Shown here in pieces: positions 6,121-51,406 of a stretch of 64,000 bases of DNA. Position 1 is the stretch's first letter, and the number at the start of each line of letters is the position of its first letter. Origin of the DNA: Heterobilharzia americana (taxonomy: Eukaryota > Platyhelminthes > Trematoda > Strigeidida > Schistosomatidae); NCBI GenBank assembly GCA_944470555.2, contig OX104127.1, positions 95,132,708 through 95,196,707 on the forward strand, given 5' to 3'. The position numbers and the translations under genes are program-made. Under the pieces are notes generated by a model that ran no database searches, had not been told where the DNA came from, and saw nothing but the letters and a program-made list of their open reading frames with translations.

Positions 6121-7465
6121 TCTGTACCCGAGTGAATGACGTCTCACCTGAAACTGGAAGCCGGCACACCGTTACAAACGCCCATCCGTCATTCACTAGT
6201 GCCCATTTCTTTGGGAAAAAGTGCTAAAACAGTTCATAACTAAAGCCAGACTCGAATCAGGTCACTAGAAGAGAATCTGTAAACAGGAATAGTTGTCATC
6301 ATCATCACCATACCCATTTAGCTTGGTATTCACAGGTGTTTTGATTGGGTTATGCGGAAACATCATGGTTAAAAGCAGTGAATCCGAATTCCCGCAGCAT
6401 ACATCGTACAATTATCCTTGGAATAGCCAGCTCAAAGTTCAAACTTTCATGCTGGTTGAATGAGTCTCCAACACTGGACATGAGCATACTTTCCTGCAAG
6501 AATGTATGCAAAAACGCGACGATAAACTAGCAACAACTGTCTGTTACTTCTAACTGTTCATGTTACTGTAGTTAATAACAGTATTTAGATGCTATGTTAA
6601 TGGCACTTGAAAATATTGAAATATTATATACTGAGAATTATTGCTAAGAAATTTGCTATTAATTACAGATGTTGGGCTATGTAGGTTTCACCTACTAATT
6701 TCTATTCATTAGTGAGAATTCTCTTTCCGAGTGTTTTGTTTTATAAAATGTTGTCCAGAGGCAACTATTTGTATCTGGTGAAGAATGTTTTGCAGAATGC
6801 TGATAGGCCTAGGGATATGTTCTACTATATTAAGGATTATTAATGACTTATTTACCTGGTAATTTTAACTTACAGAAATTGGAATCCAAAGAAGTAGTAG
6901 AAGCATAATTATCTGTACATACCGGAAATCGCGTGGTTTACATCCTCTTAAGAGGTGTTAACCTAATTTTCTCAGTATTTGAGTGTTAAATCTAGTACTT
7001 TACTCTGTCCATGATGTTAAGCACTTAATGCCAATTTGCCTTAGACTATTCTAATCGAGGAACGTCGGGGGTTATTAGATGTTATAGAAAAAACTGATCT
7101 AAAAGTAAGGTATAAATTAGTTCCTTAAGTGTTGAGAATATACATATATCTTACTTCGACTTAATCGAACACTTCATTGAACCAAAAAAGGGTTGAGAAA
7201 ACTCAATTGTTTATCCGAAATAAAAAAAAGAAATTTCGCATGCTCTGCAGATTTTCCACAGTTGATACCAAGAAGCTGTTTCTTAACAATGCAAACCGCT
7301 GACACGGATACGATAAGAATGTGTATGTACTGTAACTATTGAAGAAGAGTCGTTGATCTATTTTTCTCCAGTGTTTCTCTCAAAACAACGTCATACCAAT
7401 CGTCTGAGGTACGAAATACCAGTCTATTTTATCTTCAAAAGTACTATTTTTGATCATTGGATAAT
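6121..7465. other. AT-rich stretch, no feature recognised
   Basis: The first ~130 bases may still belong to the decayed Sm-alpha element. The remainder shows no recognisable coding frame or repeat. Confidence 0.4.
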
Positions 7466-10400
7466 GCTTAACTAGTTCACTAGTTACTAGACGGTCCTAA
7501 GCCCGGGTAAACAGGGAAGGTTCGGCATAGGGCTAGCAACCCTACCCCGTAAAACAAATCTAACCGCTGAAGAAACTTCAAAGCACAAACGAAATATAAA
7601 AAATAATAACAAAATTATTCTTCGCTGGAATCGGAGAGGCGAAATGACGCCAGTTGGTGAAAGCTTTCGAGAAGCCAATTGGCCTATGTGTCTTCTCACT
7701 CTCGATGAAAGCGAAAGTAAACGTGGGGACATGGAATGTCCGAACCATGTTTCAACCCAGCAAGGCAGCCCAGATTGCAAAATAGACACAAGGAGGTATG
7801 GTATGGAAGTGATTGCAATCTGCGAAAGCAGATGGAATGGGAGTGGACTCTCCAAACTGTCAACTGGAGAATCAATAATCTACTCCGATATTGTCACCAA
7901 GACGACAACCACGAGCACACTGAGTTTTCGAGCGGCTATCATGTTGTTCCCAACAGCATCGGAGGCTGTTTCTCATGCAGTGGGAACCAATCTCCTCCAG
8001 CATCAAGATCATGACAGCAAGATTCAACTCAAAAGGAAGGAAGGTCACTATCATACAATGCCAATGCTACGCTACGCCTCTACAAATAGTGTAGAGCAAG
8101 AGAAGAAGGAGGAATTCTACAGACAACTGCAATCAACACTGGACAAGACACCACTCCAGTTGGCGATATCAAAATTCTAATGGTTGGGGTGGCATGAATG
8201 CCAAACTGGGAGGGGACAACACAGGAAGAGAACTAACCATGGACCGAGAAGCGCTCGGTGAGGTGATGAACGAGAATGGAGAATTGTTTGCAGAATTCTG
8301 TGCATTCAAAGATTTGGTGATTGGAGGCTAGGCAGTGTGTTCAAGCACAAAGATATCCACAAAGCGACATGGATTTCACCAGACACCAGGACACACTAAA
8401 AACCAAATCAACTTCATCCCAATCTCAAGAAGATGGAGACGCAGTCTACTTAACACAAGGTCAAGAAGAGGAGCAGATGTAGGTTCACACCACTCACTAT
8501 CTAGTGCAAGGAACCTTCCAAATGAAGTTGAAAGCCTTCAAGAAAGTTGGTGATAGACCTCAATTCAAGTACAACACTCGGAAACTGAAGGACGTGACTA
8601 CAAAGGAGATCTTCACGTCAGGCATCAAGACAAAATGGGAGATATCGAGGAACATTCCTGAAGACACCTGTGTGGAAGAACACTGGAAGTCTTTGAAAGA
8701 GATGTGGAAAGAAACCTGCACAGTCGTATTAGGAAGGAAGAAGAAAGGAGATAAGGAATGGATCTCAATGGATACATGGAAGGTGATAGAGCAGGGAGAG
8801 GAGGATGGTGATACAGAAGATAAACCAGTGCATGGATGCTCAACGACAAGAGGAACTGAGCACAATGTATAAAACATTACACTAGACAAAGAAGTGAAGA
8901 AGAGTGCACGGAAAGACAAAAGACACTTCTACGAAACACTGGCAAGTGAAGCAGAACAGGCTGCTGGTAGGAGCAAGAGAGACCTAACAACACTGTATCA
9001 AATAACTAGGTTACTATCTGGGAAGAGATCAGCGCAGACGAAACCAATAAAAGATGAAGAAGGAAATTTAATTACGAAAGAAGAGAAACAAAAGAAACGA
9101 TGGCCGACCACATCAAGAAGCTCTTGAATTGGCCACCACCTTCACTTCGTCCAAAAATACCACCTGCAGCCCGGCCAATGAACTACAAGTGAACATAAAT
9201 CCTCCAACAAAAATGGAAATCCTGAACACCATAAAGCTACTGAAATGTGGGAAAGCAGCAGGACCAGACGGGATACCGCCAGAAGCACTGAGAACAGACG
9301 CAGAGACAACAGCGGACATGCTCACACCACACCACTATTGCAGAAGGTGTGGAAGGAAGAGAAGGTACCTGGCCAATGACTGGAAGAAGAGTTACCTTGT
9401 CAAACTCTCGAAGAAAGGAGACCTCAGTGCTTGCAAGAACTGGCGAGGAATCACTCTCCTGTCCACCCAGAGCAAGCAAAATATTAAGCCGCATCATCTT
9501 GGAAAGGCTAAAAGATGCGCTAGGTTCAAAACTACGACCGGAACAGGCAGGCTTCAGGAAGTACAAATCATGTGCAGACCAAATTGCAACGCCACTCTAC
9601 ACATCATCATAGAACAGAGTATAGAATGGTAGTCAACTCTCTACCTCACCTCAACTTCGTCGACTTTGAGAAGGCCTTTAACAGCGTCGACCGAGAAGTA
9701 ATTTGGAAACTGCTTCAATATTACGGAGTACCGCAAGCCTTTATCCGCCTGATTCAACAACTATATGAAGATGCCACATGCCAGCCAAGTAATTCACAAT
9801 GGGAAGCTCAGTGATGCCTTTGAAGTGAAGACAGGAGTGAAATAAGGTTGCCTACTATCACCCATGATATTCCTTATTGTGGTGGACTGGATCATGCAGC
9901 AGACAACAGTGGGGAGTGAGAAGAGGGGGACACAATGGATGGACTGCGGAAAAGAACCTAGAAGACTTGGATTTCGCCGATGACTTGTGCCTGATGCACA
10001 TAAACTTGGAGATCTACAGGTGAAAACTAACAAGTTGATAGAAGAGGTAGGGCAGTGAAGACGGGACTTCAGGTGAATATAGAGAAGACATAGGTGATGA
10101 AGATACCGCACCGCCACCATCAACAACAACAAACTCCAATCACCGTCAACGGGAGAAACTTGAAGGAAGTAACCTCCTTCACTTATCTAGGAAGCACTGT
10201 TTCAACTACAGGTGGCGGGACAGATGAGGATGTCAAAGTCAGAATCGGAAAAGCAAGACAGGTGTTCATTAGCCTGAAACCAGTGTGGAGACCTTCTGCA
10301 CTCACTCAGCATGTGGAACAAGATGCGGATTTTCAACACCAACCCAGTCAAGTCAGTGCTTCTGTGTGATGGTTGAGAGACTTGGCGCGTCACGAAAGGC

Positions 10401-10804
10401 ATTTCCAATAAACTACAGACATTCATCAACAACTGCTTACGCTGGCTCGCTACTGAAGATCAGATGGTTGGAAAGAATCAGCAACAAGGAGCTCTGGGAA
10501 CGAACCAACCAAGAAGCTATCGCTCAACAAATATGCACTGGAAGGAAGTGGAGATGGATTGAGCATACACTGAGAAGGCCGACTGGGGACATCATGCGTC
10601 AGGCCGTTGAGTGGAAGCCCGGTGGGAAGCGACGAGTTAGGCGTCGGTACCGAGGGTGACATGGAGGAGATCGTGGGAAGAGGAAATGAGAGGTTGTGGG
10701 TTGTTGTGGAGCCAGGTTCAAAAGATCTCAGAGAACAGAGTTCACTGGAGACGTGCTACTAAAGCCCTATGTTCCATTAGGAACCCAAGGGACTAATAAT
10801 AATG
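7466..10804 (+). mobile_element. RTE-clade non-LTR retrotransposon, copy A (defective, near full length)
   Basis: The 5' end starts at TTAACTAGTTCACTAGTTAC, followed by the family 5' region (GGCTAGCAACCCTACCCCG). Endonuclease pieces follow from 7644. RT motifs include FEKAFNSVDREVIWKLLQYY near 9670-9715 and an intact FADD coding segment near 9970 (TTCGCCGATGAC). The C-terminal RWIEHTLRRP segment is near 10550. The end is GGAACCCAAGGGAC plus TAATAATAA. Frames are broken repeatedly: a shift near 7700, a +5 insertion near 8150, TAG at about 8329-8331, and stops near 9630 and 9842. A target-site duplication is not clear. It belongs to the same family and orientation as copies C, D and E. Confidence 0.9.
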
Positions 10805-14272: not shown

Positions 14273-14391
14273 TAAAATTCCAAGTCACATCTAACGTCTT
14301 GCTTAATAGAAGAAAGTGAGGTGAAGAATATTCATTGAATTATTCAACAACTCTCAACAATAATAATTATTTTCCTTGTGTTATACATTAG

Positions 14392-15689
14392 AAAAAAATA
14401 TTACGTGCTATGCTTGCAGAGAATGTACAGAAAGTACACAAAGAATTGAAACTTCTTGTGGTGCATGCGCAGTAAGTCAAAGTATTCTACTCAGTCTAAT
14501 AAATTTGTATTCATTGTTCTACAGAGTAATTAACATCATAAACAAATAGGATTGAATTGATTTCACTTCATCATTTCACCATTTTCAAAACCTGTACTCA
14601 TAACAGTATATGTACCGTCGGTGACTGAAACTCAGGTGTTTGCAATAAAATTTTAAATCCTTTCTCATAAGGCTATCTAAAGTCTCATATATCATTACCA
14701 ACATCTCCACGATTCATCTCTCATTAAACACACAAGATTTGGTAATGTTAGTAGAACGGATCAGCCAGATACAGGGAAAGTGAACATCACAAGAGACTGT
14801 GGTTCAAATGAGTCAATCTCTAGTCGTTTCATTGATGCATTGAGGTGCTCACCAATTTGCAAATAAACCGAAATAACCAGCACAATTCAGATATCATCTG
14901 ATTGTCATGCATCACGTGTTAGTGCTAAGTAATTAGGAAACAGATATCCTCCTAATCAAGGTTTTGTGTCAACAACCCTGACTTCCAAGCGATGACCACG
15001 ACCGAATGAACCAAGCTGTCTGTCGGATTTGTGGTGAGTTTGTGTGGTGACCAAACAACACCTGGTCCTGAAACACTTGATGTTGCACAGATATTTGTCA
15101 GGATAACCCTAGTCGACAAACCTATTGATGCTTTGCTTCATATCTGTAGTTGGAACATGAGGACCATCGATATTAGAACCATCGGTAGATAAAATCGTTT
15201 CAGCTACAAAAGTACATTTATTAAAACAACATCAGAGAGAAAAGCACCTTCCAGTAGCAAGGATACAGCTCCAAATACAACAGAAATACCCCTTCCATTC
15301 TGGAACAACTTTCCATCTAAACATTTGGAGGTAAGTTGGTTCACTGAGTGTTCGGCATTTCAATGAATGCTATTAATACAAGCATCACTGCAAAGCAATC
15401 TCGTGGTGCTCACTACTTTTCGTTTACATTACATTCAGTGACGCAAAATACGAAACTTCACCTGATGTACTCAACTACTTACTTACAAATAAACCTTTTG
15501 TTTCAGACCCATTTGAAACCAGGATATACTGACAAGTATTGTCTCAACTCATGTGACGAAGCTCCAGATGAACAAGGAATGTATTGCTGCACAACTGATC
15601 TGTGTAACGGAATGACAAAATTGAATTTTCATGGAAGTGCCATCATCTTTATACTTGTGCTCACAGGAATCAATGTCTTCATTCTGTAG
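14392..15689 (+). CDS. Ly6/CD59-like (LU, three-finger) GPI-anchored protein, left copy
   Basis: There are two exons, 14392-14471 and 15507-15689. Acceptor TTAG and donor GTAAGT bound the first; acceptor TTTCAG bounds the second. Exon 1 starts in phase 1 and encodes NITCYACRECTESTQRIETS then CGACA. Exon 2 continues in frame with THLKPGYTDKYCLNSCDEAP, DEQGMYCCTTDLCN, then a hydrophobic tail IIFILVLTGINVFIL. Together they give ten cysteines in LU order with the terminal CC...DLCN motif and a C-terminal GPI-anchor-type signal. LU proteins are small surface or ligand-binding proteins; schistosome tegument carries CD59-like members. A signal-peptide exon must lie upstream and is not securely found. 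The function and partner are unknown. The paralogue at 38288-39584 differs strongly only in the first of these exons. Confidence 0.75.
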
Positions 15690-15885
15690 AACAGTGAGAA
15701 ACTGATAACCCTCACATGACACAACTCACACATGACCATTTTCACAAAACATTCAACATAAGGAGACTAGCTTCTCATCCATTTGCTTGTTCCACTCCAT
15801 CTCATATTTGCATCTCAATCATAGCTTGCATCATTGACTATTTTGAGTTTAATCCCTTCAACACTTTACACAATTATGGCATTTG

Positions 15886-15891
15886 AATAAA
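15886..15891 (+). terminator. Polyadenylation signal of the left LU gene
   Basis: AATAAA lies 197 bases after the stop codon and is conserved in the right-arm copy. Confidence 0.55.
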
Positions 15892-16335
15892 ATATTTCGA
15901 CGATAAGTGATATTTTAGTGTTGTGTTGTGACACATGGGGAAGGTTCTAAGGAATACACTTGACTAGGAACTCGCATCTTGTGAAATATTCCGTTTCCAC
16001 GTTATGGTCAATACTGAGGTTTGTTTCGCATCATTGGAGCTTCACAGTGCATGCAGATTGCGACCTGCAAACACTGAGGTAGTAAGGTTGACTGTCATCA
16101 CAACACAATCACTCATACCATTTTTATACGATCATCCATTTGTTCGAATCAACAAAAGGAATACAACAAATCATCATATTACGATATACAACATAATACA
16201 GTTAAGAGAATGATACTGTGTAAAGGGAAAATGTCTCTTCTCTGCAATTGTGTGTTTTCCTATGTCAACATGGGGTTGTTTCGATATTTGAAGAAGGATG
16301 GAAACTGTATTACTAATCGCAGCCCATCCTTGCTT

Positions 16336-17632
16336 GGTTAACTAGTTACTTGCTGGTCCTAAGTCTGGGTAAAGAGGGAGTTTGGGCATACGGCTAGCAA
16401 CGCTACCCCGTTAAACTAACTAATCCAACCGCTAAAAATCTTCAAAACACAAAAAATGTTTACGAGAAATGAAAGCAAGCTTATTCCTCGCTGGAATCGG
16501 AGAAGCGAAAGGACGCCGGTTGGTAAAAGCCTTGCGGAAGCCAGTCGACCGATGTGTCTTCTCTCGATCAAAGCGAAAGTAAGGATGGATACACGGAATG
16601 TCCGCACTATGTTTGAACCTAGCAAGGCTGCACAGATTGCAAACGAGATGAGAAGTTATAGTTTTGAAGTGCTAGGAATTCGCGAAAGCAGGTGGAATGG
16701 AAGGGGACTCTCCAAAATCTTAACTGGACAGTCAACAATCTACTCCAATGTTGTCACCCACACGACAACCATGAGCACACTGAGATTTGGAGTGGCCATC
16801 ATGATGTCCCCAACAGCATCGAAGGCTCTCAGGCAGTGGGAACCAATCTCCTCCAGCATCAGGATCATGACAGCAAGATGGATTCAACTCAAAAGGAAGG
16901 AAGGAAGGTCACAATCATTCAATGCTACACTACTCACCTACAAATAATGCAGATGAAGAGAAGAAGGAGGAATTCTACAGACAACTGCGATCGCTACTAG
17001 ACAACACTCCAGTTGGCGATATGAAAATTCATTCTGATGGACGACATGAATGCCAAACTGGGGGGGGGGACAACACAGGAAGAGAACTAACCATGGGCTG
17101 AGAAGCGCTCGGTGAGGTGATGAACGAGAATTGAGAATTATTCATAGAATTCCGTGCATTCAACGATTCAGTGATTGGAGGCAGTGTGTTCAAGCACAAG
17201 AATATGCACAAAGCGACATGGACTTCACCAGGCACCAGAACACACAAAACTTCAAATCGACTTCATCTCAATGTGAAGAATGTGGAGATGGAGAAGCAGT
17301 CAGCCTACTAGACACAAGATGAAGAAGAGGAGTGGATGTGGGTTCACACTACTCACTGTCTAGTGCAAGAAATCTACCTTCATAATCAGCTGAAAGCCTT
17401 CAAGACAGTTGGCGATAGACACAGGTTTCAAGTTGAACACCCAGAACAGAAACTGAACTGAGGGATAAACTACAGAGGACATCTTCACGTCAGTCATGAG
17501 AACAAAATGGGAGATATCGAGCATTATCCTTGTAGGATCGGACGTGAAGGAACACTGGAACTCTCTGAAAGAGATGTGGAAAGAAACCTGCACAACCATT
17601 TTAGGAAGGAAGAGGAGACAAGACAAGGAATA
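16336..17632 (+). mobile_element. RTE retrotransposon, 5' part only (copy B)
   Basis: It starts with the family 5' end GGTTAACTAGTTACTTGC and the diverged 5' region. It encodes endonuclease pieces (NVRTMFEPSKAAQIANEM; LGIRESRWNGRG) and stops abruptly inside the region between endonuclease and RT (RKEEETRQG). Several frameshifts, and a G run near 17061-17070. It is more diverged from copies A, C, D and E than they are from each other. The same insertion, but extending through the RT region, is present in the right arm at 34711-37641, so the 3' half was lost or replaced here. Confidence 0.85.
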
Positions 17633-17633
17633 T

Positions 17634-17690
17634 GGTTGTTTCGATATTTGAAGAAAAACAGAAATTGTGTATTTCTAATTGCAGCCTCCT
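17634..17690 (+). repeat. Direct repeat of the sequence upstream of RTE copy B
   Basis: GGTTGTTTCGATATTTGAAG and the following ~37 bases repeat 16274-16330 at roughly 80% identity, so copy B is bracketed by a 57-base direct repeat. This is too long and too diverged for an ordinary target-site duplication. The right arm has only the one copy near 37626-37682. It may be an older repeat that took part in the deletion of the RTE 3' half. Confidence 0.6.
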
Positions 17691-17954
17691 TATGGTGTGC
17701 TGAATTTTTATTATCACTGTGACATACTCGTCATGGTGATAAAGTGTTTTTATGACTAGCTTGCTATTAAATAAAAAAGAGTCTGTCTTAGTTGTTTCGG
17801 AAAATTTTCAAGGGAATAAATTAAGACAGTTTTTGCACTTCATGTGCGTTTTGATTTTCTGTTTAGTCCCATCTTTACTCACTGAACAATCGAAATTCAG
17901 ACCTGTAAGTTGTAGACATAAAAGATGAAATATGCTACTCCTTTGATTTACCAC

Positions 17955-18735
17955 TCAGATTCGATAATGAACTCTATCAACAGGTAGACGGGTTCACCAT
18001 CAGGTCTCCCTCTAGCTGGTCGCTTCACAACCAGTCTTCAGAACAGCTAACTTCGATCGTTATTCAACCAGTTCCATCTATCCAAGAGATAAATACATGG
18101 GTGACATTTTCATTAACCTTAGGAAGAATAGTAACCTGAAGACATACTATGGAAATCCAAGTCATGTCGCAAGTCAATTAACTTTTCCATGGAAACTGAA
18201 AATGACTTAGGATTCAATTTCTTGGAAGTTCTAATGAGAAGAAGACATGATGGTTACTTAAGAAGACCGATTTACGGGAAACAAACCCTTAGGAGACAAT
18301 ATCCTAATTTTCAAATTTGGTTTCAGTTAGGCGAAAAATGACATCCAATTAATCTACTTTTCACACGGATTAGAAATATTTGAACAGATAATACAGTAAA
18401 TTAGGTGCTGGAATTGATTTGAGTTGTGTAAGGAATAGACTACTGCAGTGGGCCACATTTATGTGGGTTTACTAATTCACCTGCTCTCGTAGATTTCGTT
18501 AAGTAGGCCGCACAAAGGGTTTTCTTTCGAAACGCGTCTCAAAACGCTTTCCTGTATGTGTATGTAAAGGAGACTGTAAAGTTATTAACAGCTCAATTTT
18601 TAAGCATCTGGTTAACTTTAGCCAACCTGCTCACCAGAATCTTCTTTCAAAATCACTTACAAAGTGAAATCAAACGTTTTGAAGAGGTTGCGTACTTACT
18701 ACCTCAACATAGCAGAGGCTTTTTTGGCTCAGTGC
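17955..18735 (+). pseudogene. Penelope-like element, RT remnant (left arm)
   Basis: FDNELYQQVDGFTIRSPSSW near 17960-18020 matches the PLE RT block FxNxxYxQxDGVAMGSPLGP. Further on, KYMGDIFINL sits where the catalytic YxDD block belongs (its aspartate pair is damaged). After a frame change comes LTFSMETENDLGFNFLEVLM, then RRRHDGYLRRPIYGKQT, the FLDVLxxRxxDGxLxTxVYRKPT region. A weak match (AAQRVFFRNASQNAF near 18515-18560) may be the later linker. Stops and frameshifts are frequent. The part 18045-18331 is duplicated at 34413-34702. Confidence 0.65.
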
Positions 18736-24900: not shown

Positions 24901-25350
24901 GATTCACCACAGTGATAACACATAAAGAAAAATAAACTAGAAAGAATGGGCTTGCTCAAAGATAAGGAAAGTAACCATTAGAGGACAGGTAACAAAACAA
25001 ATTTCGAATAAAGTCTAATGAATCTTTTCTTTCTCAGATTTACGGCAGATCAAAACCGCATAAGTCAGACATTCCTCTTCGGATAATGAGCTCACTAACG
25101 GCGATCCTTAGGCTTGACACCACATACTTATATACATCAGCTGAATCCTAGATGGCTGAAGATAACAATTTTGTGTCCCCAGTTGACGACACAAGGCTTT
25201 CAGAAAGCACAAAATTCAATGTTTCCAGTAGGATGAAAGTCACTGATCCTTGTCTAACAACGTCCTTGGAATTCAGTAGTAAGACATAAATAAACAAAAC
25301 AAACTGCAATATGATTACCGATTAATTATAGAGACAGTAATACGAAAACT
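21471..25350. other. AT-rich DNA without recognised genes
   Basis: Apart from the TA microsatellite at 21926-21998, no element or coding exon was recognised. Short open frames in this stretch lack domain signals or good splice context. Confidence 0.5.
21926..21998. repeat. (TA)n microsatellite
   Basis: About 36 TA units with one interruption (G) near 21991. Confidence 0.97.
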
Positions 25351-28300
25351 AACCTCACCTGGTTAACTAGTTCACTAGTTACTAACCGGTCCTAAGCCCG
25401 GGTAAAGAGGGAAGGTTGGGCATACACCTAGTAACCCTACCCCGTAAAACAAATCTAACCGCTAAACAAAATTCAAAGCACAAACGATATATAAAAAATA
25501 ATAACAAAATTATTACTTGCTGGAATCAGGCAGGCGAAATGACCCCGGTTGGTGAAAGCTTCCGAGAAGCCAATTGGCCGAAGTGTCTTCTCTTGATGAA
25601 AGTGAAAGTAAACGTGGGGACATGGAATGTCCGCGCCATGTTTCAACCCAGCAAGGCAGCCCAGATTGCGAACGAGATGAGAAGGTATCACATTGAAGTG
25701 CTTGGGATCTGCGAAAGCAGATGGAATGGGAGTGGACTCTCCAAACTGTCAACTGGAGAGGAGTCAATAATCTACTCCGATATTGTCACCCAGACGACAA
25801 CCACGAGCACACTGAGTTTTCGAGTGGCCATCATGATGTCTCCAACAGCATCGGAGGCTCTCTCTCATGCAGTGGGAACCAATCTCCTCCACGATCCGCA
25901 TCATGACAGCAAGTTTCAACTGAAAAGGAAGGAAGGTCACAATCATACAATGCTACGCTATGCACCTACAAATAATGCAGATGAAGAGAAGAAGGAGGAA
26001 TTCTACAGACAACTTCAATCAACACTGGACAAGACCTCAGTTGGCGATATGAAAATTCATTCTGATGGATGACATGAATGCCAAACTGGGAGGGGACAAC
26101 ACAGGAAGAGGACTAACCATGTGTCGAGAAGCGCTAGGTGAGGTGATGAACGAGAATGGAGAATTGTTTGCAGAATTCTGTGCATTCAAAGATTTGGTGA
26201 TTGGAGGCTAGGCAGTGTGTTCAAGCACAAAGATATCCACAAAGCGACATGGATTCAATTTCACCAGACATCAGGACACACTAAAAATCAAATCGACTTT
26301 ATCTCAATCTCAAGAAAATGGAGACGCAGTCTACTTAACACAAGGTCAAGAAGAGGAGCAGATGTAGGTTCACACCAATCATTATTTAGTGCAAGGAACC
26401 TTCCAAATCAAGTTGAAAGCCTTCAAGGAAGCTGGTGATAGACCGCAGTTCAAGTACAACACCCAGAACAGAAACTGAAGGCGAAACTACAAAGGAAATC
26501 TTCATGGCAACCATCAGGACAAAATAGGAGATATCGAGGAACATCCCTGAAGGCACCTGTGTGGAAGGACACTGGAAGTCTTTGAAAGAGATGTGGAAAG
26601 AAACCTGCACAACAGTATTAGGAAGGAAGAAGAAAGGAGATAAGGAATGGATCTCAATGGATACATGGAAGGTGATAAAGCAGGGAGAGGAGAATAGTGA
26701 AGCAGAAGATAAACCAGTGCAAGGACGCTCAACGACAAGAGGAACTGAGCACAATGTATAAAACATTACACTGGACAAAGAAGTGAAGAAGAAGAGTGCA
26801 CGCAAAGACAAAAGACACTTCTACGAAACACTGGCAAGTGAAGCAGAACAGGCTGCAGGTAGGAGCAAGAGAGACCTGACGACATTGTATCAAATAACCA
26901 GGTTGCTATCTGGGAGGAGATCAACACAGACGAAACCAATAAAAGATGATGACGGAAATTTAATTACGAATGAGGAGAAACAGAGAAAACAAAGGGCCGA
27001 CCACTTCAAGAAGCTCTTGAATCGATCACCACCTGCAGACCGGCCACAGAACTACAAGTGAACATAAATCCTCCAACAAAAATGGAAGTCCTGAACGCCA
27101 TAAAGCTGCTGAAATGTGGGAAAGCAGCAGGACCAGACGGGATCCCACCCGAAGCACTTAGAACAAGCGCAGAGACAACAGCAGACATGCTCACACTACA
27201 CCACTATTGCTGAAGTTGTGGAAGGACGGAAGAGAAGGTACCTGCCTATTGATTGGATGAAGAGTTACCTTGTCAAACTGCCGAAGAAGGGAGACCTCAG
27301 TGTTTGCAAGAACTGGCGCGGAATCACTCTCCTGTCCACCCAGTGCAAGTAAAATATTAAGCCGCATCATCTTGGAGAGGCTTAAAGATGCACTGGATTC
27401 AAAACTACGACCGGAACAGGCAGGCTTCAGGAAGTACAAATCATGCACGGACCAAATTGCAACGCCACTCTACACATCATCATAGAACAGAGCATAGAAT
27501 GGCAATCAGCTCTCTACATCAACTTCATCGACTTTGAGAAGGCCTTCGACAGCGTCGACCACGAGGTAATTTGGAAACTGCTTCAATACTACGGAGTAAC
27601 GCAAACCTTTATCCGCCTCATTCAACAACTATATGAAGATGCCACATACCAGCCGAGTAATTCACAATGGGAAGCTCAGTGATGCTTTTGAAGTGAAGAC
27701 AGGGAGTGAAACAAGGTTGCCGCCTACTATCACCCATGATATTCCTGATTGTGGTCGACGGGATCATGCAGCAAACAGTAGGCAGCGAGAAGAGAGGGAT
27801 ACACTGGACTGCGGAAAAGAACCTAGAAGACTTGGATTTCGCCGATGACTTGTGCCTAATGTCACATAAACTTGGAGATCTGCAGGCAAAAACTAACAAG
27901 TTGATAGAAGAGGCAGCGAAGACGGGACTTCAGGTGAATATAGAGAAGACAGAAGTGATGAAAATACCGCACCACCACCACCACCAACAACAACAAACTC
28001 CAATCACCATCAACGGGAGAAACTTAAAGGAGGTAACCTCCTTCACCTATCTAGTAAGCACTGTTTCAACTACAGGCGGGACGGACGAGGATGTCAGTCA
28101 GAATCGGAAAAGCAAGACAGGTGTTCATTAGCCTGAAACCAGTGTGGAGATCTTCTGCACTCAGCATGTAGAACAAGATGCGGATTTTCAACACCAACCC
28201 AGTCAAGTCAGTGCTTCTGTTTGATGGTTGAGAGACTTGGCGCGTTACGAAAGGGATTTCCAATAAACTACAGACATTCATCAACAACTGCCTACTCTGG

Positions 28301-28660
28301 CTCGCTACTGAAGATCACATGGATTGCCAGAAAGAATAAGCAACAAGGAACTCTGGAAACGAACCAACCAAGAACCTATCGCTCAACAAATATGAACTGG
28401 AAGGAAGTGGAGATGGATTGAGCATACACTGAGAAGGCCGACTGAGGACATCACCCGTCAGGCCAGGCCGTCAATTGGAACCCCGGTGGGAAGCAACGAG
28501 TTGGACTCCCGAGGGTGACATGGAGGAGGTCGTGCGAGGAGGAAATGAGAGGTTGTGGGTTGTCGTGGAACCAGGTTCAAAAGATTTCAGAGAACAGGAT
28601 GAAATGGAGACGTTCTACTGAAGCCCTATGTTCCATTAGGAACCCAAGGGACTAATAATA
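25351..28660 (+). mobile_element. RTE-clade non-LTR retrotransposon, copy C (defective)
   Basis: It starts AACCTCACCTGGTTAACTAG and ends GGAACCCAAGGGAC plus TAATAATAG. Open pieces are: endonuclease 25416-26072 (VNVGTWNVRAMFQPS, GICESRWNGSG); linker 26783-27061 (VKKKSARKDKRHFY); RT palm (FEKAFDSVDHEVIWKLLQYY near 27535-27590); FADD near 27838-27850; C-terminal NGRNLKEVTSFTYL near 28010-28060. There is a TAG at 26209-26211, shared with copy A, and many other frame breaks. Possible degenerate target repeats flank it (AGTAATACGAAAACT before, AGTAAGAAGACT after). Confidence 0.9.
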
Positions 28661-34412: not shown

Positions 34413-34702
34413 CCCAACTGAAACCAGATTTGAAAATTAGGATATTGTCTCCTGAGGTTTTGTTTCCCGTAAATCGATCTTCTTAAGTAACCATCATGTC
34501 TTCTTCTCATTAGAACTTCCAAGAAATTGAATCCTAAGTCATTTTCAGTTTCCATGGAAAAGTTAATTGACTTGCGACATGACTTGGATTTCCATAGTAT
34601 GTCTTCAGGTTACTATTCTTCCTAAGGTTAATGAAAATGTCACCCATGTATTTATCTCTTGGATAGATGGAACTGGTTGAATAACGATCGAAGTTTACTG
34701 TT
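34413..34702 (-). pseudogene. Penelope-like element, RT remnant (right arm)
   Basis: The minus strand repeats the left-arm PLE block (the LTFSMETENDLGFNFLEVLM region and RRRHDGYL) at about 98% identity in the part compared. It is joined at ~34703-34710 directly to the broken 3' end of an RTE copy. The catalytic core block is similarly degenerate. Confidence 0.65.
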
Positions 34703-34710
34703 TTCGGGAG

Positions 34711-37641
34711 TAGCTATGAAGTGGAACATGGGCTTCAGTAGCACGTCTCCATTGCATTCTGTTCTCCGCTATCTTTTGAACCCGGCTTCAAGACAATCCA
34801 GAAGCTCTCATTTCTTCCTCATACAATCTATTCCATATCACCCTCGCCTCGGACGCCCAACTCGTCGTTTCCCATCTGGGTTCCACTCGAGTGCGTGATG
34901 TCCCCGAATGGTCTTCTTAGTGCATGCCCAATCCATCTCCACTTCCTTCTGCATATTTGTTGAGTGATAGGTTCTTGGTTGGTTCGTTGACAGGCCAAAG
35001 TTCCTTGTTGTTTATTCCTTCTGGCCATCCGAACTCCAGGAACGAGCGTAGGCAGTCGTTGATGAATGTCTGCAGTTTGTTGGAAATCCCTTTCGTAACG
35101 CGCCAAGCCTCTGAACCATACAGAAGCTCTGACGTGACCTTGGTGTTGAAAATTCGGATCTTGTTCCACGCGCTGAGTGCGGAAAATCTTCACACTGGTT
35201 TCAGGGTAACGAATGCTGTCTTGCTTTTCCAATCCTGACTTTTACATCCTCGTCTGTGCCGCTGCCTGTAGTTGAAACGGTGCTGCCTTTCCCAGGATAG
35301 TGAAAGAGGCTACTTACTTTAAGTTTCTGTCGTTGATGGTAATTGGAACTTGTTGTCTTTGGTGATGGTGTTGGTTGGTAATCTTCATCTTCTCTATATT
35401 CACTTGAAGTCATGTCTTCTCTACCCTGCCTCTTCTGTCAACTTGTTATTTTTCGCCTGCAAATCTTCAAATTTGTGCGACATCAGATACAAGTCATCGA
35501 CGAAATCCAAGTCTTCTAGGTTCATTTCTTCGGTCCAGAGAATGTCCATCCTCTGGCTCCACTTGATTTGCTGCGAATCATTAAGTCTCTCCAGAATGAT
35601 GCGGCATGATATTTTGCTTGTGGTGGACAGGGGTGGAGCATGATTCTTCGCCAGTTCTTGCCAAGGCTTAGGTCTCCATTGTTTAGAAGTTTGACAAGGT
35701 AGCCCTTCCTCCAATCAATCAGCAGGTACCTTGCCTTCCTTCCTTCCTTCCTTCCTTCCTTCCTTCGAAACCTTCTGCAGTAGTGGTATGAGCATGTCCG
35801 CTGTTGTCTCTTTTATCTGTTTCCAGTGTTTCTGGTGGAATTCCTTCTGGTCCTGCTGCTTTCCCGCACCTCAGCATTTTTTGTAGCATTCAGGACTTCT
35901 GCTTTTGTCAGAGTGCCTGTGTTCACTTGTAGTTCTGTCATTGCTGGTGGTATTTGTGTACGAGTTGCAGGTGGTGGTGATGGTCGATTCAAGAGATTTT
36001 GAAGTGACTAGCCCATCGTTTCCTTTGTTTCTCCTCTTTGCTAACTAAGTTTCCTTTACTAACTTTCATTAGTTTCGTCTGCGTAGATCTCTTCCCCCTC
36101 AAATAGGATATTTGATATAGTGTAGTCAGATTTCTGCTACCTGCAGCCTGTTCTGCTTCACTTGTCAATAAGTCGTAGAAGTGTGTTATGTCTTCGTGCG
36201 CACTCTTCTTAACTTTTCTGTCCATCACCTTTCACGCTGTACTCAGTTCCTTTTCTCGTCGTTTAACCTTGCACTGGTTCATCTTCTGCTTCACCATCAC
36301 CATCTTCCTCTCTCTCCTCTATCAGCTTCCATATGTCCATCGAGATCCATTCCTTGTCTTATCTCCTCTTCCTTCCTAAAATGGTTGTGCAGGTTTCTTT
36401 CCACATCTCTTTCAAAGAGTTCCAGTGTTCCTTCACGTCCGATCCTACAAGGATAATGCTCAATATCTCCCATTTTGTTCTCATGACTGATGTGAAGATG
36501 TCCTCTGTAGTTTATCCCTCAGTTCAGTTTCTGTTCTGGGTGTTCAACTTGAAACCTGTGTCTATCGCCAACTGTCTTGAAGGCTTTCAGCTGATTATGA
36601 AGGTAGATTTCTTGCACTAGACAGTGAGTAGTGTGAACCCACATCCACTCCTCTTCTTCATCTTGTGTCTAGTAGGCTGACTGCGTCTCCATCTCCACTT
36701 TCTTCACATTGAGATGAAGTCGATTTGAAGTTTTGTGTGTTCTGGTGCCTGGTGAAGTCCATGTCGCTTTGTGCATATTCTTGTGCTTGAACACACTGCC
36801 TCCAATCACTGAATCGTTGAATGCACGGAATTCTATGAATAATTCTCATTCTCGTTCATCACCTCACCGAGCGCTTCTCAGCCCATGGTTAGTTCTCTTC
36901 CTGTGTTGTCCCCCCCCCCAGTTTGGCATTCATGTCGTCCATCAGAATGAATTTTCATATCGCCAACTGGAGTGTTGTCTAGTAGCGATCGCAGTTGTCT
37001 GTAGAATTCCTCCTTCTTCTCTTCATCTGCATTATTTGTAGGTGAGTAGTGTAGCATTGAATGATTGTGACCTTCCTTCCTTCCTTTTGAGTTGAATCCA
37101 TCTTGCTGTCATGATCCTGATGCTGGAGGAGATTGGTTCCCACTGCCTGAGAGCCTTCGATGCTGTTGGGGACGTCATGATGGCCACTCCAAATCTCAGT
37201 GTGCTCATGGTTGTCGTGTGGGTGACAACATTGGAGTAGATTGTTGACTGTCCAGTTAAGATTTTGGAGAGTCCCTTCCATTCCACCGCTTTCGCGAATT
37301 CCTAGCACTTCAAAACTATAACTTCTCATCTCGTTTGCAATCTGTGCAGCCTTGCTAGGTTCAAACATAGTGCGGACATTCCGTGTATCCATCCTTACTT
37401 TCGCTTTGATCGAGAGAAGACACATCGGTCGACTGGCTTCCGCAAGGCTTTTACCAACCGGCGTCCTTTCGCTTCTCCGATTCCAGCGAGGAATAAGCTT
37501 GCTTTCATTTCTCGTAAACATTTTTTGTGTTTTGAAGATTTTTAGCGGTTGGATTAGTTAGTTTAACGGGGTAGCGTTGCTAGCCGTATGCCCAAACTCC
37601 CTCTTTACCCAGACTTAGGACCAGCAAGTAACTAGTTAACC
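34711..37641 (-). mobile_element. RTE-clade retrotransposon, right-arm copy B' (defective)
   Basis: On the minus strand it runs from GGTTAACTAGTTACTTGC (37641 downwards) through the endonuclease (NVRTMFEPSKAAQIANEM), linker and RT remains. It reaches the C-terminal segment (RWIGHALRRP near 34925-34955) and breaks off near GTTCCACTT, without the GGAACCCAAGGGAC(TAA)n end. A TTCC expansion at 35734-35766 and many frameshifts disrupt the RT region. Relative to left-arm copy B it has a 1-base deletion after LGIRES. It is the more complete descendant of the same insertion. Confidence 0.85.
35734..35766. repeat. (TTCC)n microsatellite inside RTE copy B'
   Basis: About eight CTTC units, located where the intact family encodes the segment before the RT palm; it contributes to breaking the frame. 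Confidence 0.9.
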
Positions 37642-38085
37642 AAGCAAGGATGGGCTGCGATTAGTAATACAGTTTCCATCCTTCTTCAAATATCGAAACA
37701 ACCCCATGTTGACATAGGAAAACACACAATTGCAGAGAAGAGACATTTTCCCTTTACACAGTATCATTCTCTTAACTGTATTATGTTGTATATCGTAATA
37801 TGATGATTTGTTGTATTCCTTTTGTTGATTCGAACAAATGGATGATCGTATAAAAATGGTATGAGTGATTGTGTTGTGATGACAGTCAACCTTACTACCT
37901 CAGTGTTTGCAGGTCGCAATCTGCATGCACTGTGAAGCTCCAATGATGCGAAACAAACCTCAGTATTGACCATAACGTGGAAACGGAATATTTCACAAGA
38001 TGCGAGTTCCTAGTCAAGTGTATTCCTTAGAACCTTCCCCATGTGTCACAACACAACACTAAAATATCACTTATCGTCGAAATAT

Positions 38086-38091
38086 TTTATT
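38086..38091 (-). terminator. Polyadenylation signal of the right LU gene
   Basis: AATAAA on the minus strand, 197 bases beyond the stop at 38288; same position as in the left-arm gene. Confidence 0.55.
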
Positions 38092-38287
38092 CAAATGCCA
38101 TAATTGTGTAAAGTGTTGAAGGGATTAAACTCAAAATAGTCAATGATGCAAGCTATGATTGAGTTGCAAATATGAGATGGAGTGGAACAAGCAAATGGAT
38201 GAGAAGCTAGTCTCCTTATGTTGAATGTTTTGTGAAAATGGTCATGTGTGAGTTGTGTCATGTGAGGGTTATCAGTTTCTCACTGTT

Positions 38288-39584
38288 CTACAGAATGAAG
38301 ACATTGATTCCTGTGAGCACAAGTATAAAGATGATGGCACTTCCATGAAAATTCAATTTTGTCATTCCGTTACACAGATCAGTTGTGCAGCAATACATTC
38401 CTTGTTCATCTGGAGCTTCGTCACATGAGTTGAGACAATACTTGTCAGTATATCCTGGTTTCAAATGGGTCTGAAACAAAAGGTTTATTTGTAAGTAAGT
38501 AGTTGAGTACATCAGGTGAAGTTTCGTATTTTGCGTCACTGAATGTAATGTAAACGAAAAGTAGTGAGCACCACGAGATTGCTTTGCAGTGATGCTTGTA
38601 TTAATAGCATTCATTGAAATGCCGAACACTCAGTGAACCAACTTACCTCCAAATGTTTAGATGGAAAGTTGTTCCAGAATGGAAGGGGTATTTCTGTTGT
38701 ATTTGGAGCTGTATCCTTGCTACTGGAAGGTGCTTTTCTCTCTGATGTTGTTTTAATAAATGTACTTTTGTAGCTGAAACGATTTTATCTACCGATGGTT
38801 CTAATATCGATGGTCCTCATGTTCCAACTACAGATATGAAGCAAAGCATCAATAGGTTTGTCGACTAGGGTTATCCTGACAAATATCTGTGCAACATCAA
38901 GTGTTTCAGGACCAGGTGTTGTTTGGTCACCACACAAACTCACCACAAATCCGACAGACAGCTTGGTTCATTCGGTCGTGGTCATCGCTTGGAAGTCAGG
39001 GTTGTTGACACAAAACCTTGATTAGGAGGATATCTGTTTCCTAATTACTTAGCACTAACACGTGATGCATGACAATCAGATGATATCTGAATTGTTCTGG
39101 TTATTTCGGTTTATTTGCAAATTGGTGAGCACCTCAATGCATCAATGAAACGACTAGAGATTGACTCATTTGAACCACAGTCTCTTGTGATGTTCACTTT
39201 CCCTGTATCTGGCTGATCCGTTCTTCTAACACTACCGAATCTTGTGTGTTTAATGAGAGATGAATCGTGGAGATGTTGGTAATGATATATGAGACTTTAG
39301 ATAGCCTTATGAGAAAGGATTTAAAATTTTATTGCAAACACCTGAGTTTTAGTCACTGACGGTACATATACTGTTATGAGTACAGGTTTTGAAAATGGTG
39401 AAATGATGAAGTGAAATCAATTCAATCCTATTTGTTTATGATGTTAATTAATCTGTGGAACAATGAATACAAATTTATTAGACTGAGTAGAATACTTGAC
39501 TTACTGCGCATGCACCACAAGAATGTTGAATTGTTTGTTGACCCTTTGTACATTTTGTACATGCATAGCACATGATGTTTACCG
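38288..39584 (-). CDS. Ly6/CD59-like (LU, three-finger) GPI-anchored protein, right copy
   Basis: Minus-strand exons 39584-39505 and 38470-38288, with the same acceptor, donor and phases as the left copy. Exon 1 encodes NIMCYACTKCTKGQQTIQHS then CGACA. Exon 2 is identical in protein to the left copy (THLKPGYTDKYC...YCCTTDLCN...GPI-type tail). All ten cysteines and the CGACA segment are kept, while most residues between cysteines in exon 1 differ; acidic residues on the left are replaced by lysine, glutamine or histidine here. The start is not in these exons; a phase-1 upstream exon is needed. The LU exon ending at 44792 has exactly that phase, so this gene may be the last domain of a longer protein (exons at 55384-55493 and 44792-44963). 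Confidence 0.72.
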
Positions 39585-39804
39585 CTAAAGTATAACACAA
39601 GGAAAATAATTATTATTGTTGAGAATTGTTGAATAATTCAATGAATATTCTTCACCTCACTTTCTTCTATTAAGCAAGACGTTAGATGTGACTTGGAATT
39701 TTATGTATGTATGTATTATGTTTTTGAAATTTCACTTTTTGTTTTTCAGATTCTTTTAATCGTATTGGATTTTTAGTTAATGTTACACGCCATGATATTG
39801 TATG

Positions 39805-44791: not shown

Positions 44792-44963
44792 GTATCTTTT
44801 CAGTCGGTTCACGATGGCTAGGTTCTTCAGTGGTTGGACTAAATTTCTTTACATTACACAGATCTGTAAAACAATGACCTTCATGAGGTTTTGCACCATT
44901 CTGAGGTAGCCACTTGTCGCTTAACAAGCAATTTCTGAAAATTTCGGGGTATGTTCCATAAAA
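44792..44963 (-). CDS. LU-type internal exon (second half of an LU domain)
   Basis: The minus-strand exon is bounded by acceptor TTGCTTGCAG and donor GTAAGT. It starts in phase 0, ends in phase 1, and is open throughout. It encodes FYGTYPEIFRNCLLSDKWLP, then NGAKPHEGHCFTDLCN and a Ser/Thr/Glu-rich linker. CFTDLCN is the closing motif of an LU (Ly6/uPAR) domain; the usual preceding Cys is His here. The phases equal those expected when an LU domain is split over two exons. The exon at 55384-55493 supplies a matching first half and the exon at 39505-39584 could follow. No transmembrane part, so it is not a terminal exon. Prediction only. Confidence 0.5.
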
Positions 44964-45629: not shown

Positions 45630-48138
45630 TCATTTTTTATTTAGGGAACACATAAAATCCCATAAAATATTGTACGACAATTTGAGATTGAATTACAAAA
45701 TTTATCAAAAGGAAGTGAAAAAAGTACAAATTCGAGAACAGAGTTGATTGAAAAATATTGAGATTTGTACTAAATATTGGTCAGTTTTACACTATTTTGA
45801 TATTTTATTTGAAATATTTACTTTGAAAACCAGATATCACCTGCAAATCTTTAGCATATCGCTTACTCCTAGGATTTGAAGTATCCCTCTGCATCAAAAT
45901 TTTATACTAGAAATGAGTCGGAGACCAGCTGGAAATTCAGATGACATCTATTCAAGTTCATAAGTAATGATGTTTCATTTCATCTGATCTCCTTGACTTT
46001 AGATACCGTTCTCTTTTAAAAGGCATATGACAGCATTATATTAAGCATATTAGGCATAATTATTTATAAGGAAGGGTAAATTGGATAGTAATTTAATATT
46101 TTAAAACCTCATAAGCCTAAATCACAGAGTTCAGGTAGATTGTTATTCAAAATTATCTCTAAATCCAAGCCGTATAATTTGAAATCCAGAAGGTTTTAAA
46201 TGCTTGCATCATTGACACACAAAAGATTCAATAACTAAGGCCTAATCTGCTTATGAAGAAGAAAAATTCACAAGCTTAGATTTTCGCTTTGTGTAACCCT
46301 GAACTCATACTGCACATACAACAATTTCATTACTTGGTCACTCATTTATTTTTTTTTTAAGGAACTTAATTTGCTTTCACCTGTGGATTGCATACCTGGT
46401 GAATACCTTTTACCTTTACAAAATCAAACTGCCTTTGCTACATCATACATTTCAATTGAAACGAGGACAGAGATTTATTCCTATCGAATGTTGCGAAAAC
46501 ATCGTATGTTTCCTGATGAACGTTTCATACAGGCCTCAAGAAATAACAGAAATGATACTTACTGTGCATGTTGTGCAACCACTAACTACTTCAACCGTGC
46601 CATTTAATTCAGGACAAAACTTGCATCTGTAGCACTGGATAGTTAAGCAGTAGTCTGCGCATGCAAAAGGAAAAGACATAGCTATTAGGTTTTAATGGCT
46701 GTGATGAATTATGTTTAAGCATTGTTTTGTTGTTTCACACTTTCATGAAATACAATCAACCTAGGGAGAAGAATTCACATCCTATGATAATTCATTTATA
46801 GGCTAGAAATTTTCAACAATTTTTCATGGGAACAATATATCTCAAGTCATTTACGGCAAATATTGTTTTTTTCTAGCCATGTAAAATAATGGTGGTTGTC
46901 AGTGGATTGTTTTTGGTATCTACAAATCTTTCCACTGATACTTATCTGTTAGCATTTTCAGCATAAGGATGCGCACTAAGATCCAGTAAAGAACCAACTT
47001 TGTAACAGGAAAACGTTTGCAGTGTGATAGAGAATAAGTTCATATTAAGTTGTGTTACTACTCACATTGAAATGAATGAGGTTAGAGATTCCATGACTGA
47101 CCTACTGCAACATTCTGCACCAGGCTGCGAAGTCAGTGCAATACATTGACGTTGTCACAAGTTGAGTGTATAATAAGAATTCCAGTCTGCTTTTCACCAC
47201 TTTGCATTTCGAAAATACCACCAGTTCAGGTTAAAAATCTTAGCTACGATATCGAAATTTTAAAAATACTGCTCATTAGGGATTCAACAAGCGTGAAAAG
47301 TATTTTTCACTTCGAATATTCTGATCAAGGAAACATCCTACATTCTAAACAACATGTGAATCTGTCAGTATTTCAGGCTCTAAAGAACTTGTAGACGTCG
47401 ATACTCCAATCTCACCTTACGTACAGAGTAGCACAAATTCCTCACAATAAGTGTTATTGAACATTATTACTTACGTCTGTTCAAAATATTCAGTAGAATA
47501 TAAAGCAGTATCCAAAAGTATTTCGAATTCTGGTTCATAATGCACATAATTCCAAAAGCCAAGGTGTAAGAGAATTGAGTATTGCGTTATATTTGGTAGA
47601 AATTTCTACAAAGACACATAAAAATATAACATGTGCTTCTGTGTTATCCAACCAGAAAAATAAAAGAGATCATCTGACAGTTCATAGAAATACTACTCGC
47701 TCTGTCAATCACACTATAACTGACTCTCGAATTGTGCAAACACTTTGAAAATTTTTAACGATAAATCAGTGATGAATTAGTTGAAAAGTTTCATGTATTA
47801 TAATCAAACTAAGTCTAGTCATACTCGAAATGCAGGTGCTCATTAATCGCATCCTAGATGTTTTACATGTAAAGTCAGTCTGATGAGGTGTAATACATTT
47901 TAAATTAATATACACATTGATGTTGATTAAATTACTACTTCAACTGATCTAAATGTCATGAAAGTAGGTAGTTCTCTGTGATACCTGACATTCTATGAAG
48001 GAATAGGAGTCAACATTGAGTAATACTTTTAAGCGTTAAACCTTTGTAGTGTTTACTAAAATTAACTAGACACAGATCAGAATTAAAAGTTGAAACTTAG
48101 TTTTTCACTCACCATTTTGAATCTCTAGTAAAGATATT
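45630..48138. other. AT-rich DNA with one possible unassigned exon
   Basis: Mostly featureless. At 46363-46607 (plus) a strong acceptor (run of T then AAG) precedes ~80 open codons ending NDTYCACCATTNYFNRAI and a stop. It might be a decayed terminal LU exon, but the closing Cys-Asn is absent, so it is not called as a gene. Confidence 0.35.
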
Positions 48139-48203
48139 AACCACGCCTGGTTAACTAGTTTACTAGTTACTAGCCGGTCCTAAGCCCGGGTAAAGAGGGA
48201 AGG

Positions 48204-48836
48204 TTGGGCATAGGGCTAGCAACCCTACCCCGTAAAACAAATCTAACCGCTGAAGAAACTTCAAAGCACAAACAAAATATAAAAAATGAAAACAAAATTA
48301 TTCCCCGCTGGAATCGGAGAGGCGAAATGACGCCAGTTGGTGAAAGCCTTCGGGAAGCCAATTGGCCGATGTGTCTTCTCTCGATGAAAGCGAAAGTAAA
48401 CGTGGGGACATGGAATGTCCGCACGATGTTTCAACCCAGTAAGGCAGCCCAGATTGCGAACGAGATGAAGAGGTATCACATCGAAGTGCTTGGAATTTGC
48501 GAAAGCAGATGGAATGGGAGTGGACTCTCCAAACTGTCAACTGGAGAATCAATAATCTACTCCGATATTGTCACCGAGACAACAACCACGAGCACACTGA
48601 AGTATGGAGTGGCCATCATGATGTTTCCAACAGCATCGAAGGCTCTCATGCAGTGGGAACCAATCTCCTCCAGGATCATGACAGCAAGGTTCAACTCAAA
48701 AAGAAGGAAGGTCACAATCATACAATGTTATGCACCTACAAATAATGCAGAGCAAGAGAAAAAGGAGGATTTCTACAGACAACTTCAATCAACACTGGAC
48801 AAGACACCACTCCAGTTGGCGATATCAAAATTCTGA
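48204..48836 (+). pseudogene. RTE copy D endonuclease domain (N-terminal part)
   Basis: An open frame of 210 codons. The likely ATG is at the MTPVGESLREANWP segment (48327), although the frame is open upstream to a TTG at 48204 with conserved codons LATLPRKTNLT. Catalytic landmarks of the apurinic-like endonuclease are VGTWNVRTM (Asn) and GICESRWNG (Glu). The later GDMNAKLGGDN and SDHYLV blocks lie beyond the frameshift at ~48806, at 48839-48870 and 49129-49145. Confidence 0.8.
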
Positions 48837-49761
48837 TGGGCGACATGAATGCCAAACTGGGAGGGGACAACACGGGAAGAGAACTAACCATGGGTCGAGA
48901 GGCGCTAGGTGAAATGAATGAGAATGGAGAATTGTTTGCAGAATTCTGCGCATTCAACGATTTGGTGATTGGAGGCAGGCAGTGTGTTCAGGCACAAAGA
49001 TATCCACAAAGCGACATGGACTTCACCAGATGGACACACTAAAAATCAAATCGACTTTATCTCAATCTCAAGAAAATGGAGACGCAGTCTACTGAACACA
49101 AGGTCAAGAAGAGGAGCAGATGTAGGCTCAGACCACTATCTAGTGCAAGGAACCTTCCAAATCAAGTTAGAAGCCTTCAAGGAAGCTGGTGATAGACCTC
49201 AATTCAAGTACAACACTCGGAAACTGAAGGACGAAACTACAAAGGAGATCTTCACGGCAGCCAGCCATCAAGACAAAATGGGAGACATCGAGCAACATCC
49301 CTGAAGAAACCTGTGTGGAAGAACACTGGAAGTCTTTGAAAGCTATGTGGAAAGAAACCTGCACAGCCGTATTAGGAAGGAAGAAGAAAGAAGACAAGGA
49401 ATGGATCTCGACGGATACCTGGAAGCTGATATAGCAGGGAGAGGAGGATGGTGAAGCAGAAGATAAACCAGTGCAAGGATGCTCAACGACAAGAGGAACT
49501 GAGCACAATGTATAAAACATTACACTGGACAAAGAAGTGAAGAAGAGTGCACGCAAAGACAAAAGACACTTCTACGACAGATTGGTAAGTGAAGCAGAAC
49601 AGGCTGCAGGTAAGAGAGACCTGACGACATTGTATCAAATAACCAGGTTGCTATCAGGGAAGAGACCAACACAGATGAAACCAATAAAAGATGAAGAAGG
49701 AAATTCAATTACAAAAGAAGAGAAACAGAGGAAACGATAGGCCGACCACATCAAGAAGCTC

Positions 49762-51244: not shown

Positions 51245-51406
51245 CATGGAGGAGGTCGTGCGAGGAGGAAATGAGAGCTTCTGGGCTGTCATGGGACCAG
51301 GTTCAAAAGATCTCAGAGAACAGAGGTCACTGGAGACGTGCTAGTGAAGCCCTATGTTCCACTAGGAACCCAAGGGACCAATAATAACAATTTAAGTAAA
51401 GATATT

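Follow-up and report, generated by a model that had tools for sequence, protein, structure and literature searches.

Within the stretch of Heterobilharzia americana DNA analysed here, a window of 64,000 nucleotides (C1:95132708-95196707), one exon is present twice, once on each strand, in two versions that differ far more than the DNA around them. The question raised by this locus is how so strong a difference could arise or persist in the midst of near-identity. The original prediction had seen in it two otherwise near-identical gene copies, one exon of which had diverged by accelerated replacement or by conversion from a third paralogue. The pattern itself proved to be true and unusual, but it had been partly misread: the locus looks like one complete gene accompanied by a truncated copy, and the divergent exon looks older than its surroundings. 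No description of this gene pair was found among the papers listed by the searches, which were confined to open-licence literature and in part covered the first matches only. The two versions of the exon, exon 4 of its gene, are located as follows.

Positions 14392..14471, plus strand: exon 4, left type, the 5' half of LU domain 2, with five Cys; 20 of 80 bases differ from the right copy.
Positions 39505..39584, minus strand: exon 4, right type, placed by global alignment, by tblastn and by reading of the splice sites.

Global alignment of the two arms in which these exons lie (14273-17631 against 39703-36349) gave 38 substitutions and four gap columns in total. Twenty of the substitutions, and no indels, fall within the 80 bases of exon 4, as originally described; the probability that at least 20 of 38 would fall within 80 of 3355 positions is about 7e-24 (hypergeometric), and chance is thus excluded for the clustering. 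The low divergence reported for the flanks was also recovered: two substitutions in the 119 bases of 5' flank (14273-14391), seven plus one indel in the next 290 bases of intron (14472-14761), one in the following 748 (14762-15509), none in the 178-base exon-5 stretch (15510-15687) and one in the 649 bases of 3' flank up to 16336. Left exon 5, in its full length, shows no difference in 183 bases and 100% identity in tblastn, in keeping with the identical 3' exon that had been predicted. Divergence extends from the first exon base to position 14452 (61 bases), the final 19 exon bases being identical, and the nearest differences flanking the block lie at 14387 and 14479.

Both types of exon 4 retain the reading frame, the splice sites and, as had been claimed, all five Cys; the exon boundaries and splice sites described earlier were confirmed by reading the sequence. 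An ungapped alignment of the two types over 78 bases gives 77% nucleotide identity; of the 20 changes between them, 10 adjoin another change. The net K/R/D/E charge is 0 for the left peptide and +2 for the right one, so that the reported flip of charge is a real change, albeit a modest one.

On the right, exon 4 belongs to a complete five-exon gene model on the minus strand, drawn from sequence alone, with two LU domains and phases that fit. The left copy yielded no more than exons 4 and 5. The remaining exons are these.

Positions 47475..47538, minus strand: right exon 1, with the start codon and a hydrophobic, signal-peptide-like segment; the same exon type occurs in paralogues A, B and F.
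Positions 46563..46654, minus strand: right exon 2, the 5' half of LU domain 1.
Positions 44792..44963, minus strand: right exon 3, the 3' half of LU domain 1, without the CC pair and with the donor GTAAGT, from tblastx against paralogues A and B.
Positions 38288..38470, minus strand: right exon 5, from tblastn.
Positions 15507..15689, plus strand: left exon 5, the 3' half of LU domain 2 and the hydrophobic C-terminus.

Right exon 3 ends in phase 1, as exon 4 requires. Right exon 1 lies 7.9 kb upstream, with exons 2 and 3 in between. Pattern, tblastn and tblastx scans of the plus strand upstream of the left copy (15 kb plus wider fetched sequence) revealed no exons 1 to 3 for it, signal-peptide exon and first LU domain included; an exon-1-like stretch 33 kb upstream of the left copy (19.6 bits, with a stop) was discounted. 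When right exon 3 was used as the query, it had a single match in the assembly. The idea of two otherwise near-identical gene copies was therefore not confirmed. Because exons 1-3, the signal-peptide exon included, were not found, the left copy probably does not serve as a second surface antigen exposed to present-day selection; it is truncated and probably not translated.

The flatworm LU domain is described, in extracts of PMC3812095, as containing ten Cys, exactly two residues separating Cys 2 from Cys 3 and Cys 4 from Cys 5. All five aligned copies conform to this spacing, with CxxCxxC, 10 residues and CxxC in exon 4, and C, C, CC and CN in exon 5. With the two 86-residue products of the window, Pfam gave no match up to an E of 1. 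When the limit was raised to 10, Toxin_TOLIP appeared for three of five members (best E 5.5), Toxin_cobra-type for two of five (best 0.45) and a zinc-ribbon model for two of five (best 1.4); no LU or toxin-like Pfam match rose above the cut-offs, which are known for the first of the five members. In a profile search against PDB at E up to 10, 18 of 19 matches were snake toxins, proteins of the three-finger fold, or made variants of them (best E 0.49), the top row being an unrelated enzyme (E 0.3).

In the right copy, exons 2-3 and exons 4-5 encode one domain each, and exon 3 contributes three Cys and no CC pair. Sm29/SmLy6D is a tegument protein of Schistosoma with two LU domains (extracts of PMC4492491 and PMC4350168). 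The right gene model resembles it in domain layout and Cys pattern: there are two LU domains, C7-C8 is missing from the first and ten Cys are present in the second, and both ends of the product are hydrophobic. A protein database search with the 86-residue right product gave no candidate that passed its word filter. Passages of PMC4350168 report fast evolution of Sm29 between species, with dN/dS of 0.83 and 0.41 in other schistosomes, and an extract of PMC4664899 reports that an Sm29-like protein is variable among S. japonicum populations. For seven related S. mansoni genes, two of the encoded proteins were tested and are not complement inhibitors, function being left open in the text excerpted from PMC3812095. 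In most of the Schistosoma species studied, Sm29 is described as a single-copy gene (PMC4350168, in part); in contrast, several complete and partial Sm29-type copies are clustered here at C1:95.06-95.25 Mb.

A search of the assembly (665 million bases in 337 contigs) with the exon-5 peptide, at E up to 1, gave 10 matches. Six lie in the cluster, the two window copies among them; of the others, three are at further places on C1 and one is on contig C225. The cluster was scanned by pattern and by tblastx over 213,708 fetched bases. A five-exon gene type recurs there: exon 1 is signal-peptide-like, exons 2-3 encode the first LU domain, which lacks C7-C8, and exons 4-5 supply the second, which has ten Cys, together with a hydrophobic end. 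To the left of the window, on the minus strand, lies a degenerate-looking member (C1:95108700-95117900) with traces of exons 2, 3 and 5 and no recognised exon 4, and a degenerate exon-2-like stretch occurs at window position 4411, minus strand (tblastn, 26 bits). Exons 1, 2 and 3 occur in extra copies at C1:95208572-95216060 and 95084707-95085878, in stretches that match genes F and B at 97.3-99.8% identity. At C1:95236748-95238005 and 95245225-95246483 lies a second inverted partial duplication; each of its arms carries exon 4 of gene F, with no difference between the two, and no exon 5 was found beside one of these exon-4 copies. Contig C225 duplicates the gene F locus at 99.4% and is taken for a second haplotype that remained in the assembly; no second haplotype of the window locus was found in this one assembly.

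When the assembly was searched at the DNA level with left exon 4 (E up to 0.001), only the two window copies were detected, the right one at 79%. Since the left query found the right exon at that level, a further copy of either exon-4 type should have shown. The donor paralogue or third locus that had been suggested was not found in the assembly at that sensitivity, and conversion from such a donor is retained below as a rival explanation. Five other recent duplicate pairs served as controls, a further pair between two of the same copies being left out. Their six exon comparisons, in which the third exon end is approximate, gave 0/64, 0/98, 2/64, 0/80, 4/126 and 0/64 differences, the 0/80 being an exon 4, and the remainder of the control pairs differs at 0.1 to 2.6%. 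None of the six contained an island of divergence like that of exon 4, which was seen in the window pair alone.

The history of the two copies can be read in part from the inverted repeat that carries them, the main features of which are listed here.

Positions 14273..17631, plus 18042-18331, plus strand: left arm, with 119 bases of intron 3, exon 4, intron 4, exon 5, the 3' flank and the start of a dispersed retroelement-like repeat.
Positions 34413..39703, minus strand: right arm, holding a longer copy of the retroelement-like repeat (34720-37640).
Positions 17632..18041, plus strand: left-arm stretch that replaces right-arm 36348-34703 and suggests that the left arm is derived.
Positions 14882..16689, plus strand: zone of near-zero divergence, with one substitution in 1808 bases, interpreted as the trace of a later conversion between the arms.

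The arms are 98.75% identical between 14273-17631 and 39703-36349, and 97.6% identical between 18042-18331 and 34702-34413; on their outer sides the sequence differs. The left arm contains the first 1295 bases of the repeat 34720-37640 and then other sequence where the right arm has 36348-34703. Because part of the right-arm repeat is missing on the left, the left arm is probably a shortened descendant of a right-type arm. The dispersed repeat is taken for a retroelement, judging from its length and copy number; four more long copies, 88.7-97.7% alike, are present in the window at 7465-10801, 25350-28667, 48139-51391 and 55771-59002, the last two forming the closest pair.

Divergence between the arms is uneven: one substitution in 1808 positions is seen at 14882-16689, and 24 in 1761 across the remaining zones, exon 4 excluded (Fisher P 6e-7, a value that is too kind since the zone borders were set after the differences were seen). 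The middle zone, exon 5 included, fits a later conversion between the arms. As exon 5 sits inside this zone, its identity is barely informative and offers no evidence of selection on that exon, an idea that was consequently dropped.

Upstream of 14273, the left sequence matches the right intron over 194 + 124 bases only. In simulations at K 0.41, with 20 runs for each of two indel rates, the share of the length of right-intron copies that was recovered averaged 98.7% at one rate and 97.5% at the other and was never lower than 89%; at K 0.55 this average fell to 64%, with 27% in the worst run. The left edge at 14273 looks like a real junction. The 194-base match is 67% identical between the arms and gave a Smith-Waterman score of 145 versus a maximum of 63 in 200 shuffles. 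It was considered as a sign of old paralogy and rejected, since the stretch belongs to a dispersed repeat, the left and right copies of which start at different points, as read from the limits of the match. The stretch also matches elsewhere in the fetched sequence (12 hits for the right query and nine for the left, self included), and the right copy is 66% identical to a distant piece, similar to the 67% between the arms.

Over the 26 whole codons of exon 4 (NG86), five silent changes on 15.8 sites and 13 replacement changes on 62.2 sites correspond to a dS of 0.41, a dN of 0.25 and a dN/dS of 0.60. The ratio is thus below 1, and no significant difference separates silent from replacement sites (P 0.5). 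The flanks (119 + 410 bases, the far end being the last difference seen) carry 10 substitutions in 529 bases, so that the silent sites of exon 4 are about 17-fold more divergent than the flanks (Fisher 4e-4, scored as 4/16). Since silent sites are raised as well, the exon-4 types appear older than their flanks and than the duplication. Accelerated replacement as the sole cause does not accord with these values. The earlier count of 11 replacement changes in eight residues and two silent changes, taken from the first Cys, is correct in itself but omits the preceding codons, which hold two more silent changes.

Paralogues A, B and F, 50-59% identical in nucleotides to either exon-4 type, were used as three outgroups. 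At the 18 differing codon positions their majority agreed with the left base in seven, with the right base in seven and was undecided in four, polarising being weakened by outgroup silent sites near or beyond saturation (dS 1.5 to infinite). At the protein level, the outgroups match the left type at residues 14, 17 and 19 and the right type at no differing residue. The dN values to A, B and F are 0.56, 0.60 and 0.58 for the right type versus 0.44, 0.48 and 0.54 for the left type; the right lineage may have changed faster.

The explanation favoured here, tentatively and at somewhat less than an even chance, is that two long-lived versions of exon 4 existed at the right locus and that the truncated inverted duplicate preserved one of them. 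Both versions, each functional, would long have existed side by side at the complete gene, where selection on the second LU domain, through a binding partner or host recognition, would have kept them apart while recombination kept the introns of both alike. The partial duplication would have copied a chromosome with one version, the sequenced chromosome carrying the other, and later conversion between the arms would have wiped out the differences in 14882-16689 and not those in exon 4. The left copy would then be the fossil of an exon-4 version rather than a second working antigen. Both the selected part and the selecting agent, including any role of host recognition, are inferred here.

Such an origin from alleles is supported by the contrast between 20 of 80 differences in exon 4 and about 2% in the flanks, by the raised silent sites and by the preservation of frame, Cys and splice sites. 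It is supported further by the equal split of the outgroup bases between left and right and the lack of a third exon copy in the search, by the probable derivation of a left arm without exons 1-3 together with the signs of exchange between the arms, and by the dN/dS values of Sm29 (PMC4350168, in part) and the population variation of the Sm29-like protein (PMC4664899, in part). Several observations speak against it. The lone haplotype pair of the cluster, that of gene F and C225 (70 substitutions in 15.1 kb), has no difference in exons 1-4, exon 4 included, and one in exon 5. The outgroups lean to the left type at the protein level, and the right type stands further from them in dN. The silent changes number no more than four to five, and multi-base mutations could have carried silent changes along. 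The very sharp edges of the divergent block would require much recombination over a long time, and in the one assembly seen there is no allelic variation in view at right exon 4.

The chief rival to an origin from alleles is micro-conversion after the partial duplication, in which a tract of some 61-90 bases in one arm would have been overwritten from a third paralogue now lost or missing from the assembly. This is judged rather doubtful, while still to be reckoned with: the block 14392-14452 is short and sharp-edged, the last 19 exon bases have no differences, and the cluster is rich in partial duplicates and includes a degenerate gene without a recognised exon 4. A donor that acted after the duplication should, however, be near-identical to one of the exon types, whereas the search with the left exon gave the two window copies only, and paralogues A, B and F are far more divergent. 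The remaining rivals are less likely than either alleles or a donor. Fast point substitution under diversifying selection, in one or both copies after the duplication, would account for the 13 replacement as against five silent changes, the restriction of the changes to coding sequence, the retained Cys and the greater protein distance of the right type from the paralogues, and dN/dS of Sm29 is high among schistosomes (PMC4350168, extracts). It is nonetheless improbable, given the roughly 17-fold excess at silent sites with a dN/dS of 0.60, the missing exons 1-3 of the left copy and the absence of any such effect in the six exon comparisons from five other recent pairs.

A low probability is likewise assigned to old paralogy, in which conversion would have homogenised two ancient copies to either side of exon 4 while selection preserved the difference in that exon, as in red/green opsin exon 5. 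The peak of divergence amid near-identity, the exchange between arms and the 67% match over 194 bases just upstream in both arms would suit such a history; yet at K 0.41 the intron upstream of 14273 should align over nearly its whole length, as the simulated copies did, and the larger of its two real matches, that of 194 bases, lies within a dispersed repeat. Selection on a truncated left copy is also doubtful. Misassembly, by the wrong joining of two haplotypes or loci, is very improbable: at least one haplotype-duplicate contig of the cluster (C225) is present in the assembly, but the arms differ on their outer sides and by the missing part of the repeat, both exons are intact, and neither the left exon nor right exon 3 has a further match in the assembly. 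A long shot, finally, is that the left copy acts as a silent archive, from which a stored exon-4 cassette would be put into the complete gene through conversion or inversion, switching an exon of the surface protein over generations; such an exchange is conceivable because a different exon 4 is preceded by 119 bases of matching intron and followed by kilobases of matching sequence.

Several known systems bear comparison with the locus. In MHC class II exon 2, divergent alleles of the exon are flanked by more similar introns. The favoured reading, of long-lived exon alleles amid recombining flanks, would be of this kind, the polymorphism of exon 4 being here a proposal drawn from one assembly. 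Snake three-finger toxins are known for accelerated point mutation, and they share with the present pair the three-finger scaffold and exon change with conserved introns. The excess of replacement over silent change per site that marks the snake genes is not seen here (dN 0.25, dS 0.41). In the process termed ASSET, described for the same toxins in extracts of PMC2711939, segments are exchanged for unrelated sequence; the two exon-4 types, in contrast, align without gaps and keep Cys and frame.

Divergence peaks between exchanging duplicates are described for human red/green opsin exon 5, with RHCE/RHD also cited (passages of the review PMC3924837), for Drosophila Pre28 (PMC2588116, in part) and for Tigriopus GOT1 (PMC3728101, in part). 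As in the opsin, Pre28 and GOT1 pairs, a short coding stretch differs strongly here in an otherwise near-identical pair with signs of exchange between the copies, the exchange being read from uneven divergence in zones chosen afterwards. The present case differs from all three in that one copy is truncated and probably untranslated, silent sites are highly divergent, and there is no clear old homology outside the arms.

A recent duplicate that contains one older exon is easily mistaken for a product of fast evolution, and counting the silent sites of the exon helps to separate the two. If the exon versions are alleles, the locus would represent an MHC-like polymorphic exon in an Sm29-type surface protein of a fluke, in a family of vaccine candidates, and would mark which part of the second LU domain is under recognition.
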